From Hyperoplus lanceolatus (Eukaryota > Chordata > Actinopteri > Uranoscopiformes > Ammodytidae), in assembly GCA_026929865.2 (NCBI GenBank), contig CM049404.1, positions 6,378,501-6,442,500 on the forward strand: a stretch of 64,000 bases of DNA, in the 5' to 3' direction. The position numbers and the translations under genes were made by a program. Position 1 is the stretch's first letter. Each line of letters opens with the position of its first letter. The notes beneath the pieces were generated by a model. The model had not been told where the DNA came from. It saw nothing but the letters and a program-made list of their open reading frames with translations, and ran no database searches. Positions 6,373 through 61,853 of this stretch are shown here, piece after piece.

Positions 6373-11844
<5,472 letters not shown>

Positions 11845-12167
11845 CTATACCCACACATGGACAGAGCAAAAAACAGATGTCTTTTCACTAAGTATGAGAG
11901 TGCCATAAGATGCTTATGCATATTGGAATATATTGTACCACAAAAGCCTTGTAGCAATTGCGTTATGTATTAATAATGCATTTTGTAAAAAAAAAAATCA
12001 AGATATAATACATGTTCACTTCATTATGTAATAACACCTGCATGATTTAATACTATGACGCATAAGTTGATCTGCATTTTTCAGTAAATTATGACATAAT
12101 GTGGTAGTTATAACAAAATGCGGCGGTTCAGCTTGCACTTTCTGTTAATGAAAATGTAATAATGTGG

Positions 12168-12509
12168 TAGCCTGGCTCCGCCCGCCCGCCTACTTCCAGC
12201 CAAATTTTATTTTCCCTTCAGTAGTCATCACTATTCGACAGCCGGTCCAATCAGCGAACAGAGCGAGTGGCTGAGAACGATGATGTCGAAGTCGCGCTCC
12301 AGTTTCAGTTGCCAGAAGCCGGCTCATGACACACGTGACGACCAAACTTTATGTGATTGGTTGGCTAATCCAGAGTGGCACTGGGCAGATCCAATAGTTT
12401 TAAACTTTAACAGACACCCGCCTCCATGAGTGAACGTTTGCCAATTACAGCACTGCCAGACCTTCTGTACAAATGAAATGAAGTATGATGGTCTGGTAGC
12501 ACCAGGCTA
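12168..12509. mobile_element. TIR element with 9-bp target duplication, short copy
   Basis: The element starts TAGCCTGG and ends CCAGGCTA, flanked by the 9-base direct repeat ATAATGTGG (12159-12167 and 12510-12518). It is 342 bp with no coding capacity. A longer copy of the same family in opposite orientation lies at 36667-37265 and also has a 9-bp TSD. A 9-bp duplication would suit Mutator-like or related elements, but the terminal sequence is not one I can assign. Confidence 0.85.
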
Positions 12510-12518
12510 ATAATGTGG

Positions 12519-14997
12519 TGCAATATCTAATCATTTATTACAGAAGGCAGAGGAATGTATTACATATTGCATTCAGGCTGTTTATTACAAGAGGCGGCAG
12601 AAATGACATGATGTGGGTGTTATTACATGATGTGAAATGTATTACATTTTGACATTACATTACATAATGTCTTGTTACAAACATACATTCCTAAATAAAC
12701 TATCTTGTATAGCTAATGTGACTCTCACTTCCCTCCATTCATTTTGGAAGTGTTTTTAATATTAAATGTTCGAAAAACCAAGTTATCAACCCAACACAAC
12801 ATAAAGCAGGCAGTATGCTTGTGGAATGAGGGAATAGTTATGGCGTGTACCTGCATCTGACAACCCCTTGCTGTCAGATTGGTAGTGCTGTGGCTAATTT
12901 TTTTTTAACTTTACGAAAGTGATCATCACTATTTGATACCACTTCATGCAACTGAGCTGTGTGGAGGTGAGAAGGAAAGCAGGGTCTATTTCTCTTTGGA
13001 ATCGGACCCATCTTAATGCCAAGACTGTTAATGAATTCCCAAATGGCTTGTTGTGTGAACTTCACTGCACCTGGCACTGCTGACTGAATAAAAAAAGGGT
13101 TTTTGTTTCAATAGGGAACCATCTGTTACCCATGGGATGTCTCCTCCCACAGTATTTTAGCAATGACGTAAGTGAGGATGTATAAGGTATGATTCAATAA
13201 TAGTACATCCACACAGTCTGCAATTATGAAATTTGGGCACAACGAAGGAGAAAACAGATGTTTCCAGAGTTCTGTGTGTTTTGTCAATTTCATTCCGTCG
13301 TGTAGCTAGCAGTTCAATGTGCATTTCACCTGCTATTTCTACATGTGGCAGTAAAATAAGATAAAAATATGTACTGTCTGAACGTGTGCTGTAACCCCTG
13401 TATTTAAACAATATCATGTACTCCTCTCTTTCGGTCGGCATGTCACTTCACCCTCCAGTGCGGCAGTTCAGAACCACTAAAAACTTTTCATTTCCAAAAT
13501 GGTTTGTTGGATCAATACCCAGATGGCCACAATAATAGCCACACTTTTATGTGTGTTCACAAATGACAGTTTATATACTGTATATGCGTAAACAACGCAA
13601 CGATTTACGATTATCGATGTATCCGATTAATTTTTTTATTTTTTATTTTCATATCTGCCAGCAACACCTTTCCGTATGTATACAATGTGAGTCTTCTTTA
13701 ATTTGGTTCTCCTCAACACATTGTATTTGGAATTAACATGGCATAACTCCTATTTGCCTAAATTATTCTTTTGAAAAACAACTACAGATTTTTGTCCGGT
13801 CAACAACCTGACCAACCTGGTCTTGTGACCTAATATTCATTTTCTCAGTTATATAGTCTGTATGCACCAACCTGACAGTGTATGTAAAATATTTAAAAAA
13901 CACTTTTAATTGATTCAATATATTATTTAATGTAAGAAGGTTTCACATTGTATGTGAACTTTACATTTATGTTATCTCATTTAGAATATTTCATTGCGTG
14001 TCTCAATGACCTGCTGGCTATGACGTGAACCCTCTAACCACAGTGTCTCTGATTTGATTCTGACGGAAGATCAAGGAGGAAAGAAAGCATCAAAATAATA
14101 ATCTATCTTCCAATTTTACCCTCGTTATTGCATACAATAGTGTAAAAAAGTAGGCTTCCATTCTATTTGGCTCTCTCTATTTTTGTCTCACCATTGTATG
14201 TTGTCACTCACGGACAATGTCTTTGTTTCTACGGACACAAATCCAGTGCAGGGATTATGCCTAATGCCAGGCCAGGATGCTAATCTCTGTACACCCTCAG
14301 CCTTGTCTAACACATTGCCCTCTGTTAATTAAATGCATTTTGTATTTTGCCTATAGAATAACATGCACATTTAATTTTAAATATCTATAGCTACTGTGTA
14401 TACTGTGTATATATATATATAACTTTTATAATTTGTATTTTTTCCCTTTCAAATTGTACCTTTCCAAACTTGTCCTCTAATACAATCTACATATGATGAG
14501 TACACACAACTGCACTTGGTCAGAAAATCATCAGAAATCGCACTGAAGTGGGCTTTTTTGTGTCGAAAAAAATTGAGTTTATAATTAAAGTAGCAGCAAT
14601 AGCTTTAAATAGTAGCAATAACGGCTATCACTCCATTTTAACAAGGATTAGTTATTGATCACTTTTTAATGTCTTACCTTTGTTTCAGTTGGTTGCCAAT
14701 ATCAATGATGTCACTGGAGTCTGAAAACAGTCAAAACCCAAACACACAAAAAAGACACACACTCACACCACCATGCTCACAACTGACAGAATCCAGCTAA
14801 TCTCAGCATACTGTTAGAAGTGCCGGTCCACTGTCAGTCTGTCCCGTCTGCCCTCGAACCTTTGCCGCCTGTATAGATCAGTGTGTGCTGAGTGGACCTG
14901 AGAGCTTGTCAGCGCGCTACAACTCTACTCTACACTGCTGCAATGGGGACAGAGCCCACTTTGACAGCTGATTACAAACTGCCTCTGCAAAGGGCAG

Positions 14998-14998
<1 letters not shown>
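12519..14998. other. Unassigned AT-rich sequence
   Basis: No gene, repeat end or RNA gene was recognised. The few open frames are under 100 codons with no family features. This stretch lies between the two copies of the kinase exon and may be intronic. Confidence 0.4.

Positions 14999-15066
<68 letters not shown>
14999..15066. repeat. (CA)n microsatellite
   Basis: About 33 CA units. Open frames made of His-Thr or Cys-Val repeats across it are artefacts. Confidence 0.95.
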
Positions 15067-15073
<7 letters not shown>

Positions 15074-17179
15074 TGGCCGGAATCAGCATAATCAGTTGCA
15101 CACACACATAATATGGACTGTAAGTATATGGTTGACATAACCTAGCATAGACACAGATAACAGCGTTCATCCATTCACATAACCATTTATATGGCAATTA
15201 AGTTTTTTATTTGACCTATTCACTTGCGCACACACACACACACATAGTATGCCTGTCACCAGTGCTATAATCTAGTTCATACACTCGGTTAAATGAAGTT
15301 CCTGTGATGACAGTCACAAAGCTATGCGTTGAAACTGAGATCATAAATTATATAGAGGTGTGCAAACATGTTCCTACGATATTGATTTACATAAAACAAA
15401 TAATTGTACAGTAAACTGTTTATTAATGCTTTAATATAATATGAACATATGATATAGTCATAACTTATTGTATTGCAGTTATACTAGTAGTTTGGAAATG
15501 TATCGATGGACTCCCTTTCTGCTTGTCTGCAACTTGTTTGCCGCCCCATGTATCCTTTTAAGGAGTCCCTCATGTTGTTCCTTACATGTATTAGTATGTA
15601 GCCGACCCCACACTTTCTCTGTAACAGTGGCAGTGGTGTAGGCTTTCAGTTGGGGGCAACAAGATGTTTAATGAGTTGGCTGTCAAAATAAAATTGCTGA
15701 AATGGAAATGCAAAACTATATTGTCATCATGCATCCTTCCATATTTTAATGGGGGTATATATCAGATACATGTTTTCCATGTGGAAAACAGGTATCTGAT
15801 TTATACCTGTTTCAGTCACACATGGTCGATCTGTTTATTCAAATATGTAGTCTCTGAACACATAAATTAACACATCTTAAATACATTCCGTCAAGTTCTA
15901 GCACTAGGTGTTACTTCTCAAATGACAATTTTACAAGCAAAGCATGTGACTGTATACATAAACTACACAGGAGTATATAACAGATTTAAAATAAACTTTT
16001 TGACTAAATAGAACAGTATACTCACTAAGTTTACACTGTGTGGTATTGCTCCTTCTTAATTTTTTAAAAAATATATGAATTCCTATTTTTGCAGGGATTT
16101 GTTACCACTTCACAAACTCAGATGTCTACGTAAATACATGGTACGACACCTTGATGCTTTGACTCAGTAAGACACACACAGATTAACACATACATCTTTC
16201 AAGCCACGTGCCACACTGTTGTTTTAAAACATCTTCCTTGTTTAGCCAAAAGACTCAGTTGGCTTAGGGTGATGAGATGGAGGAAGTTACACTGATACTA
16301 TACATACTTAGCGTTAACACCGGTACCATCCCATTTGCTCTGAACATCAAAGAGAGAAATGAGACAGGATGGGGGAAGTGGTTGTCATGAGGGAAAGGAA
16401 AACAAGTGCAATTAGCCTTTGAATTCAAACGGTTATCTTGAAGTATGTCATCTACTGCGTTGCATCCTCACCACAACCAAACCACATTCATGTCCTCTTA
16501 AACGGGTTGAGACACGTGTATGGCTCTAAATATGGAAACATCAATTTGTCTTTGAATTGGCCAATCTTTCCACCACTTTGTTCACAACATATCCGATACA
16601 TGGGTGGCCGTGGAATTTTGTGCTGGTGTTTATGATTCCCAGAACACCATCATCAACTCAAAATGTCAATTCATCCAATTACTTGCTCCTATTACCATGG
16701 TACTGCCATCAGCAACAGCTAAACTCTGTTTAGTGCCAATTAACAAACTAAGATACATGACCATATAACATCTTATCTGCTAAAATGTAGGCTTTGTTAT
16801 TGCGAGCATGTTAGCCTACTGACGTTTGCCTAAGTTCTTAGCACTGTTGTATCTTATTACATCTTTTAAGAGCTGTTAGCTTGGCTGTAAACTTTTGTCT
16901 TTGTGTTTCTCGTTGTGAGAACATCCAGATGTAATACAGATATGCAGTTTTCATGACAAAGCAAGATATGTTTAAAGATAATTCGATATTATGCCAATCT
17001 TGCTACACTGTCTCCACAATTGCATAAAAGGCTTCGTTGCTAAAGCCACCCGATTATCTAGCACATAAGGTGGACATTAAAGTAACATCACAGGCATATG
17101 AATTAGCACCTTCTCCCCATAGGGTGTGCTGAAACAAAGCCAGCACCAGTCCAGTGGGGGGTCTTACCTTCCCTCAAGC
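15067..17179. other. Unassigned sequence upstream of the kinase exons
   Basis: A short palindrome near 15764-15800 (CAGATAC...GTATCTG around TTTTCCATGTGGAAAA) was noticed. No gene or mobile-element ends were identified. Confidence 0.4.
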
Positions 17180-17545
17180 TGCGGTCATTACCCCTGAAGC
17201 GGTGTGTGACCAGCAGCACTTTGCCGTATTTGCCTCGGCTGATCTCCTTGACGATGTTGAAGTGTTCCTGGATCTCGCGGTTACTGAGGCTCTGTGCCAT
17301 CAGCTCCATTAGCTCATCTATCAGGCTGCCGTCAGCCAGGCCCAGCTCAATCATCTATACCCACACATGGACAGAGCAAAAAACAGATGTCTTTTCACTA
17401 AGTATGAGTGCCATAAGATGCTTATGCGTATTGGAATATATTGTACCACAAGAGCCTTGTAGCAATTGTGTTATGTATTAATATTACATTATGTAAAAAA
17501 AAAATTCAACATATAATACATGTTCACTTCATTATGTAATAACAC
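17180..17545 (-). repeat. Duplicated block, copy B (kinase exon plus upstream intron)
   Basis: This is the direct-orientation copy of 11670-12037, 5.5 kb further upstream in the gene's sense. By eye the exon part differs at 2 of 163 positions, while the flanking intron part differs at about 8 of 190 plus two small indels. Confidence 0.95.
17192..17354 (-). pseudogene. Second copy of the SBK2-like first coding exon (alternative exon or duplicate remnant)
   Basis: This copy keeps the tatag|ATG acceptor, the 163-bp length and the AGGG|gtaatg donor, so it could splice to exon 2 exactly as the proximal copy does. It encodes the same 54 residues except Thr19Met and Gly39Ser; the latter turns GRGKYG into SRGKYG at the glycine-rich loop. 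Both are CpG transitions and both change the protein. A second, stronger donor (AAG|gtaaga, GT at 17167-17166) lies 24 bases downstream, in frame, and would add eight residues (GNDRSLRE). Including both exon copies in one transcript would break the frame (163 is not a multiple of 3), so use would have to be exclusive. It may be a mutually exclusive first coding exon or a non-functional duplicate. Confidence 0.6.
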
Positions 17546-36666: not shown

Positions 36667-37265
36667 TAGCCTGGTCCAACCAGACCACCGTACTTCATTT
36701 CATTTGTACAGATGGTCTGGAAGTGCTGTAATTGGCAAACGTTAACTCACTTGGAGGCGGGTGTCTGTCGAAGTTTAAAACTATTGGATCTGCCCAGTGC
36801 CACTCTGGATTAGCCAACCAATCGCATCACGTTTGGTCATCACGTGTGTCATGAGCCGGCTTTTGATGGTGCCTTCCAGTTGGACAGGGAACTCGGAAAT
36901 TTCCGACTTCACTACATATTGTAGTCTATGAATCTACCGGTACCTGGCAACAGTAACTTGTTAGAGCCTAACGTTTAGTTATTTGGAAGAGAAAGGTTTT
37001 AGGCGTCCATACTTTTGCGAGCAGATGCACTGGAACACAGACAGGTCGGAACTCGGAACTACTAAGTCGGAAATCTCCTTCTTCCGAGTATAAAGCAACG
37101 CAGCATTCAACTGAAACTGGAGCGTTCTCAGCCACTCGCTCTGTTCGCTGATTGGCCGATCGTAGATTCTCCGGAGAATCTGGGAAATGCGCTGTACACC
37201 CAGACTGACTACTGAAGGGAAAATGAAATTTGGCCGGAAGTAGGCGGGCGGCCGGAGCCAGGCTA
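36667..37265. mobile_element. TIR element with 9-bp target duplication, long copy with insertion
   Basis: Ends TAGCCTGG and CCAGGCTA, flanked by ACTGTGATA on both sides (36658-36666 and 37266-37274). Compared with the reverse complement of 12168-12509 it has about 260 extra bases after GAGCCGGCTT (roughly 36863-37110). These contain GGAACTCGGAAATTTCCGAC and TTCCGAGTATAAAGC, probably another inserted element. The flanks of the insertion align well with the short copy. Confidence 0.85.
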
Positions 37266-45144: not shown

Positions 45145-46609
45145 TGTCACTACTTCAGCCACAGTTTAGTTTTTTCACTTGTCTGTTCCCATTCTAAGGG
45201 TCTATTCACACATGCCGTGTTTAGTTCGGTTGAAACGAACTCAGATGCACTTCTGCCTTCGGTGCGCATCTTTCAGGCAGGTGTGAATTCAGCAATCACA
45301 CTCGGGGGCGGACCAAACAAACGCTCCGAGACCCAGCTGAAGAGGTAGTCTCGGTGCGTTTCCAAACGCACTCTGCTGCAGTTCGTTTGTGGGGTGAATT
45401 TGTCCGGACTCGATCCAACCCAAATGCAGGAGGCACTGTGCCTTTTCTTTCTTAATAAATAGCCGTCAGCTTCACATTATGGGAAAGTGTTGTTGTCGCC
45501 ATTATTAGGACGATACGTTGTGGTTTGACCGGGAGCCCAGAACAATATATTACATTTGATCGAGAGGACACGTAAAAATGCTGAATGTGTTCAGCGATCA
45601 GATGAAGGAGAGGGGAGCGTCTCCCGCACAGTGCCAACAGGTTCACGCTGCGCGTGAAGTGTGTTTTTATTTTGCTTTCCATGTACGGGACCGTCAATAC
45701 TATCCCTGTGTCAGTTTGGAGCTGAACTGCGCCGACCCAGCTGATACACAGCTTAATCAGCTGAGTGTCAGCTTGAGCCTATTCTTCTCGCGTGACGTGC
45801 GTCCAGCACCAAAAATACAGTAAAAATTATGTTTCACATTGTAGGCTACAAGCCACATAACGTGGCATTGACATAGGGCTACATATTATAACCATATGAA
45901 ACAACAATAATTTGATGTTTTTCCTCTTTATTTATAGGCTAGATGTAGGCCATTTTATTATTTTTAACCCCATATTATATCAATGATATATATTTCGCAG
46001 TTTTAACTTCGTGCTTCCTGTTTCTCTCCACCCCAGAATGTCTGTCCAATGAATGAATAACCTCAGATCACGTATGGTTTTGCTTCGTAATGCTGGTTCA
46101 CTTGCAAAAGGGGCAATATGAAAGTGGACCACACCAAACAAAAAAAAACAAAACTCTATTTGGTCTGGACCAAAGCAAGTGAACTAGCAGACTTTCCCAG
46201 TGTGAATACACCCTAACTCTCTTGTCATTTCAGACCCGGCCACTCCCCCCTGCTCTGCACTCCCTGTTGATTACTTTCACCTGGCCTAACCATACTCACC
46301 TGCTCCCCATCAGCTATTAGCCCCACAGTATATATACCAGTTCATTCCCTCAGTTCTCTGCCAGATTGTCTATCGTGTTACGTAGCTCTCCAGCCTATTC
46401 TGTATTCTTGCCTGTTTTCCTGCCTACTTGCGTTTTGACCCACCCTTCTGACCTTGGACTACCCTTTTGCCTGCCCCTACTGGATTTGTTTGCCTTGATA
46501 CCAACTACCTGGTTTGAACTGCTCTTCATTAAACCTTTGTTGCTGAACCTGAACTGTGTGTCTGTCGTGCTATTGGGTCCTTGCCTGCCATTTTGTGTCA
46601 ACCCTGACA
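45145..46609 (+). mobile_element. Solo LTR split by a Harbinger-like element
   Basis: The unit starts TGTCAC, ends CCCTGACA and has the 5-base duplication GCATC on both sides (45140-45144 and 46610-46614). Removing 45198-46213 and one TAA leaves about 446 bp, which aligns with the solo LTR at 17911-18360 over its whole length, including the sequence on both sides of the insertion. Confidence 0.87.
45198..46213. mobile_element. PIF/Harbinger-type element nested in the LTR
   Basis: Left end GGGTCTATTCACAC, right end GTGTGAATACACCC, with TAA duplicated on both sides (45195-45197 and 46214-46216). The 1016-bp body has no transposase domain. Its interior includes GGTCTGGACCAAAGC near the right end. 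Confidence 0.85.
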
Positions 46610-46730
46610 GCATCAATTCATCTTTTTAAATTGACCCTGATCTAAAAGTGACCCAAGGATAGCCACGATGTTAGGTATGTTAGGTTAGCTGAGCAGACCC
46701 AAAAAGAGAACCCTCAACAACAAGCACTTA

Positions 46731-60729: not shown

Positions 60730-61524
60730 TTATTTTCTAGCACTGCCTTAACCCTCTTGGGCATGTAGTTCACTAGAGCTTCACAGGTTGCCACTGGAAC
60801 CCTCTTCTACCCATTCATGACGACATCAAGGAGCTGGTGGATATTAGAGTCCTTGCGCTCCTCCATCTCCCGTTTGAGGATGCCCCAAAGATGCTCAATA
60901 GGGTTTAAGACTGGAGACATGCTTGGCCAGTCCATAACCTTTACCCTCAGCTTCTTTAGCAAGCCAGTGGTCGTTCGGAGGTGTGTTTGGGGTCGTTATC
61001 ATGTTGCAGTACTGCCCTGCGGCCCAGTTTATGAAGGGAGGGGATCATGCTCTGCTTCAGTATGTCACAGTACATGTTAGAATTCAATGAACTGTAGATC
61101 CCCAGTGCTGGCAGCACTCATGCAGCCCCAGACCATGACACTCCAACCACCATGCTTGACTATAGGCAAGACACACTTGTCTTTGTACTCCTCACCTGGT
61201 TGCCGCTCCACACTCTTAACACCATCTGAACCAAATAAATGTATCTTGGTCTCATCAGACCACAGGACATGGTTGCAGTAATCCATGTCCGTAGTCTGTT
61301 TGTCTTCAGCAAACTTTTTGTGGGGTTTCTTGTGCATCATCTTTAGAATAGGCTTCCTTCTGGGATGACAGCCATGTAGACCAGTATGATGCAGAGTGCG
61401 CTATGGTCTGAGCACTGACAGGTTGACCCCCCACCCCTTCAAGCCCTTCAGCAATGCTGGCAGCACTCATACGTCTATTTTCCAAAGCCAACCTCTGTGT
61501 ACGACGCTGACCACGTGCACTCAA
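60730..61524 (-). pseudogene. Tc1-like transposase, broken and 5'-truncated
   Basis: Read on the minus strand from 61524: LSARGQRR, then NRRMSAASIAEGLEG and GGQPVSAQTI, then HVLWSDETKIHLFG with the first catalytic Asp. These are followed by MVWGCMSAAS, then QHDNDP with the second Asp, then LNPIEHLWGIL with the catalytic Glu. The N-terminal DNA-binding part is missing because the inverted arm replaces it. Frameshifts, an 18-base deletion near 61085 and in-frame stops prevent a full product. Confidence 0.85.
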
Positions 61525-61853
61525 CCTTCGTAAACTGGGCCGCAGGGTGGTATTGCAACATGATAACGACCCCAAACACACCTCCAAGACGACCAGTGGC
61601 TTGCTAAAAAGCTGAGGGTAAAGGTTATGGCCTGGCCAAACATGTCTCCAGACCTAAACCCTATTGAGCATCTTTGGGGCATCCTCAAACAGAAGGTGGA
61701 GGAGCGCAAGGTCTTTAATATCCACCAGCTCTGTGATGCTGTCATAAATGGGTGGAAGAGGGTTCCAGTTGCAACCTGTGAAGCTCTAGTGAACTACATG
61801 CCCAAGAGGGTTAAGGCAGTGCTAGAAAATAATGATGGCAAAGCAAAATATTG
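61525..61853 (+). pseudogene. Inverted copy of the Tc1 transposase C-terminus
   Basis: On the plus strand: LGRRVVLQHDNDPKH, then MSPDLNPIEHLWGILK, then VPVATCEALVNYMPK, ending NNDGKAKY and a stop. It holds only the last two residues of the DDE triad. It mirrors minus-strand 60730-61036 and is the inner part of the right arm. It cannot make a working enzyme alone. Confidence 0.85.

Follow-up and report, generated by a model that had tools for sequence, protein, structure and literature searches.

A recently copied first coding exon upstream of a protein kinase gene in Hyperoplus lanceolatus, most likely without productive splicing

The kinase gene and its duplicated first coding exon

We analyzed a window of 64,000 nucleotides from Hyperoplus lanceolatus (assembly GCA_026929865.2, contig CM049404.1, positions 6,378,501 to 6,442,500 of the forward strand); all coordinates given here are those of the window. 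A protein kinase gene lies on its minus strand. The gene consists of three coding exons that together encode 346 residues, with a single stop at the end (Table 1). Pfam identified the product as a protein kinase (PF00069, E 5.1e-49, 167.5 bits, residues 33-302), and the glycine loop and the HRD, DFG, and APE motifs, read by eye, were all present in the translation. Chk1 was the best among 60 listed of 2,549 PDB matches to the kinase, and no SBK-named chain was found among the same 60. We take the gene to be SBK2-like, a name that we use as an assumption. A literature search on SBK2 in teleosts gave nothing that looked related, as judged from the listing. Using tblastn, we compared the 346-aa protein with the window at E values up to 1. 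Four places were found, which were the three exons and a distal copy of the first coding exon, and nothing else; a second upstream kinase gene was thus rejected.

Table 1. Coordinates of the kinase exons, the duplicated segment, and the associated repeat features
Feature	Position	Strand	Remarks
Third (last) coding exon	6373..7047	-	675 nt including the stop
Second coding exon	10551..10753	-	203 nt; donor AAG/GTGAGT
First coding exon, proximal	11682..11844	-	163 nt; Gly39 present
Whole duplicated segment, proximal copy (probable source)	11670..12037	-	368 nt
Degenerate inverted-repeat element	11964..12685	.	arms 11964-12046 and 12608-12685
Candidate 5' UTR exon	14678..14720	-	donor AAG/GTAAGA; between the two exon copies
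In-frame extension to the stronger donor	17168..17191	-	24 nt; would add NDRSLREG
Whole duplicated segment, distal copy	17180..17545	-	366 nt
Distal copy of the first coding exon	17192..17354	-	163 nt; open; Met19 and Ser39
Arm fragment in the distal copy	17472..17545	.	matches part of the first arm

The first-pass annotation of this DNA had described a 163-bp copy of the first coding exon with intact AG and GT and an unbroken frame. Both the alignment and the translation agreed with this description. The distal segment sits 5.5 kb upstream of the proximal one in the same orientation, and the two align over 368 columns with 10 mismatches and one 2-nt gap (96.7% identity, E 7.7e-175), a match far above chance. 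The copy is therefore real, but the duplication is not exon-sized, as had been supposed, since it carries 191 aligned upstream and 12 downstream bases in addition to the exon. Of the 10 mismatches, two lie within the exon itself and the other eight in its aligned upstream flank; the 12 downstream bases match throughout. At the thresholds used, the two loci showed no detectable homology outside the 366/368-nt segment. A tandem duplication of the entire 5.5-kb unit was ruled out, as the loci are alike only in this segment. Both exon copies are open-framed, and each lies between GTATAG on its 5' side and GTAATG on its 3' side. The pair thus consists of homologous copies in the same orientation and the same phase, as is expected of mutually exclusive exons, and the distal copy displays neither the frame break nor the splice-site loss that would mark it as dead.

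A candidate 5' UTR exon lies at 14720-14678. It would put ACAAAG before the ATG, and in-frame stops were seen upstream by eye. At the pooled-strand rate, the probability that a donor as strong as the one at 14678 occurs somewhere in 5.1 kb by chance is 0.60, and it exceeds this value at the minus-strand rate. For this reason, a gene start at the candidate exon, which would leave the distal copy outside the gene, is a lead only.

Other features were observed in the window. A 450-nt solo-LTR-like element (TGTCAGGG…GTTGTGACA) occupies 18360-17911, with CTTGG on both flanks, and has a relative of about 75% identity at 46213-46612. A 54-nt near-perfect palindrome (89%) is located at 15754-15807, between the two exon copies. 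A Tc3-type transposase left at most a faint signal at 61306-61653 (PF01498, E 0.0056), its 17.4 bits falling below the curated cut-off of 31.5. Pfam was run on 9 of the 35 listed open reading frames and gave one sub-threshold match, while Rfam at the gathering threshold gave 0 matches in the window. A search for relatives in viral contigs returned three pattern matches, none of which was a relative by tblastn.

Substitutions, splice sites, and predicted products of the distal exon

The proximal and distal exons differ by C/T at 11789, which changes Thr19 to Met, and by G/A at 11730, which changes Gly39 to Ser. These are the same two differences that had been listed in the first-pass annotation, and they were found at the same positions in our exon alignment. 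Gly39 had also been named there as the first glycine of the loop, and the loop indeed begins GRGKYG. Finally, both substitutions had been attributed to CpG transitions; in agreement with this, both sites are CpG in the proximal copy and have lost it in the distal copy. According to one account of the MAST kinases, these enzymes have serine in place of the first GxGxxG glycine (PMC10419289). Hence, a loss of activity in the Ser39 form cannot be assumed. A literature search combining G50S with the glycine-rich loop gave no match.

Splice sites were scored against a consensus built on approximate human frequencies and not trained on fish, and this scoring ranked the genuine sites of the kinase gene unevenly (exon-2 acceptor, -2.2 bits, rank 220 of 1,030; exon-3 acceptor, rank 6 of 1,030). 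With this human consensus, the donor common to both exon copies (GGG/GTAATG) scored 0.4 bits and ranked 80th among the 947 GT sites of the minus strand between 5000 and 20000. A distal donor, AAG/GTAAGA, is found at 17168, 24 nt past the exon. Its score of 6.2 bits is reached by 6 of the 947 sites under the same consensus, and positions 17168-17179 are absent from the proximal copy. The range 17168-17354 assigned to the distal copy in the first-pass annotation takes in this second, stronger donor, which was absent from its reasoning. A score of at least 6.22 bits was reached by 6 of the 4,212 plus-strand GT sites and by 17 of the 4,088 on the minus strand. The chance of an in-frame donor this strong within 40 nt, computed post hoc at the pooled-strand rate, is 0.24%, and it rises at the minus-strand rate alone. 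The acceptor of both exon copies scored -1.1 bits (rank 168 of 1,030). This poor score counts for little against the distal copy, because the proximal acceptor is identical and that of exon 2 has an even lower score.

If the 17168 donor were used, the product would read …THRFRG-NDRSLREG-TPMALKV…, and the insert would fall in the beta-2/beta-3 loop, where the proximal form aligns ungapped to Chk1. The likelier product of the distal exon, if there is any, would therefore carry Met19, Ser39, and eight extra residues, and would not be the plain Ser39 form. The Ser39 isoform previously suggested was right as to the substitution and the openness of the exon; however, its plain form is probably not the likeliest one, given donors of 6.2 versus 0.4 bits. 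The earlier restriction to a single copy per transcript went too far. Because the second copy brings an ATG of its own, a joint mRNA would gain an upstream reading frame. With both copies in one transcript, the first frame would stop directly after …RFRDD or …LREDD and overlap the ATG of the proximal exon.

Probable sequence drift and the likely direction of copying

We simulated neutral evolution in a simple model under assumed parameters for CpG changes, transitions, and indels; an intact copy was one that kept its frame, start, and splice dinucleotides. Intactness was 0.68, 0.55, 0.45, 0.29, and 0.20 at base rates of 1, 1.5, 2, 3, and 4% on the distal branch, respectively. As neutral copies stay intact in 20 to 68% of runs, the intact distal copy is a weak sign of function, and nothing past this open frame would speak for a functional isoform. 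The exon changes comprise two nonsynonymous and no synonymous substitutions (over about 120 nonsynonymous and 37 synonymous sites), a pattern that would fit drift.

When all changes were counted, the exon (2/163) did not differ significantly from the upstream bases (8/191; p 0.12), and including the 12 downstream bases raised p to 0.20. When the comparison was limited to non-CpG changes, the exon had 0 in 145 sites and the upstream sequence 6 in 189 (Fisher p 0.038), which could hint at constraint on the exon. One AT-rich stretch holds five of the eight upstream changes; with this stretch set aside, the contrast became 0/145 versus 1/162 (p 1.0). With regard to purifying selection on the distal exon, one of four contrasts reached p 0.038, and it depended on this single AT-rich cluster.

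The degenerate inverted-repeat element at the proximal site bears on the direction of copying. The proximal arm pair has a local score of 48, a value reached by none of 2,000 dinucleotide shuffles (mean, 20; maximum, 34). Restricted to the part of the arm common to both copies, the pair scored 45, and 500 shuffles gave at most 34. The regions were picked after the repeat had been seen, and these shuffle counts are descriptive. No partner for the distal arm fragment was found within the next 855 nt, where the best candidate scored 17. The break of the duplication at 12037 falls within the first arm, and of the 9 arm bases beyond it, 6 match the partner. Since the inverted-repeat partner occurs only beside the proximal exon, the sequence supports this exon as the source from which the distal piece would have been copied out, and the CpG polarity in the exon agrees with copying in this direction. 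The post hoc choice of regions and the matching of only 6/9 arm bases past the break qualify this reading.

A 342-nt insert (12509-12168) interrupts the inverted-repeat element, with the 9-nt direct repeat CCACATTAT on both of its flanks. This insert is a short element with inverted ends TAGCCTGG…CCAGGCTA, for which the 9-nt repeat is the target repeat. A longer relative of the element was seen in the other orientation within 36667-37265, where it is flanked by the 9-nt repeat ACTGTGATA.

Interpretation of the distal copy and its relation to known systems

The distal exon, in our view, probably stems from a recent duplication that was dispersed and partial and took in the first coding exon of the intact kinase gene; the copy would now be drifting and most likely is not spliced productively. 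According to our model, the proximal site was the source of a 366-nt piece, made up of the exon with its upstream sequence and 12 nt of the following intron, which was placed 5.5 kb further upstream without a change of orientation; templated repair may have been the mechanism. We infer that the distal copy has since been drifting neutrally, its exon most likely without productive use by the spliceosome. The CpG losses, the 2/0 pattern of changes, the intactness of neutral runs, and the one-sided inverted repeat all argue for this reading. On the other side are the open frame with AG and GT, the contrast at p 0.038, and the strong in-frame donor at 17168.

The same donor enters into other explanations. 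The distal copy could sometimes be spliced before the proximal exon, as an aberrant or regulatory inclusion in which the upstream frame lowers translation. The joined copies stop next to the proximal ATG and the 17168 donor is strong, but inclusion requires transcription through 17354, and we regard it as unlikely. Transcripts from upstream of 17354 could also join the distal copy to exon 2, replacing the proximal exon; the 17168 donor would be the most likely route, and the kinase would then carry Ser39 and the eight-residue insert. Such a used alternative first coding exon would have an open frame, two donors in the right phase, and a strong donor at 17168, and the serine at the first loop glycine is also described for MAST kinases (PMC10419289). 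Nevertheless, the copy is young and has two amino-acid changes and no silent one, making its use quite unlikely. In its most specific form, that of a newborn alternative first coding exon of 187 nt with NDRSLREG added and with Ser39 altering ATP handling, the proposal appears highly improbable.

Very unlikely, too, is the reverse history, in which the distal exon came first and gave rise to the proximal one. The near-consensus in-frame donor after the distal exon would suit it, but the inverted-repeat partner was found only at the proximal site, the CpG polarity of the exon is opposite, and the GGG/GTAATG donor yields a loop that aligns gap-free to Chk1. The copy is short and similar enough to recall a haplotype piece placed twice in the assembly. 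This artefact has no direct support, and the flanks are unrelated on both sides, the divergence is about 3%, and the window contains no N; it is extremely unlikely. Capture of the exon by a transposon was also considered. By eye, the ends of the distal copy displayed no terminal repeats or target-site duplication.

Returning to the drifting partial copy, some duplicated exon copies are non-functional and form the category of pseudoexons by duplication. The distal copy is like these in that it is partial, has arbitrary ends, shows CpG decay, and bears no sign of selection that survived our checks. Unlike these, it is still open and keeps its splice dinucleotides, and thus is not dead by sequence. 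The pair also resembles the tandem duplicated exon substitutions described in PMC9741552, in that two homologous coding-exon copies with AG and GT lie near the same gene in the same orientation and phase. As described there, the functional events annotated in human are mostly ancient, whereas the kinase pair is about 3% diverged and known from sequence alone; a copy of this divergence is consequently not a typical functional one (PMC9741552). Ser39 would place a serine where the account of the MAST kinases has it in the loop, but the serine there is family-wide (PMC10419289), while here one CpG transition introduced it into a duplicated exon.

An unused distal copy would be a small dispersed duplication of an ordinary kind, and it would still advise caution in annotation, as automatic pipelines may call it exon 1. 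We also reason that the 97% identical direct repeats (11670-17545) may be prone to recombine, deleting 5.5 kb and leaving one hybrid exon. If the distal copy is used, it would represent a very early stage of exon substitution, with a new strong donor and the loss of a loop glycine as the first steps.
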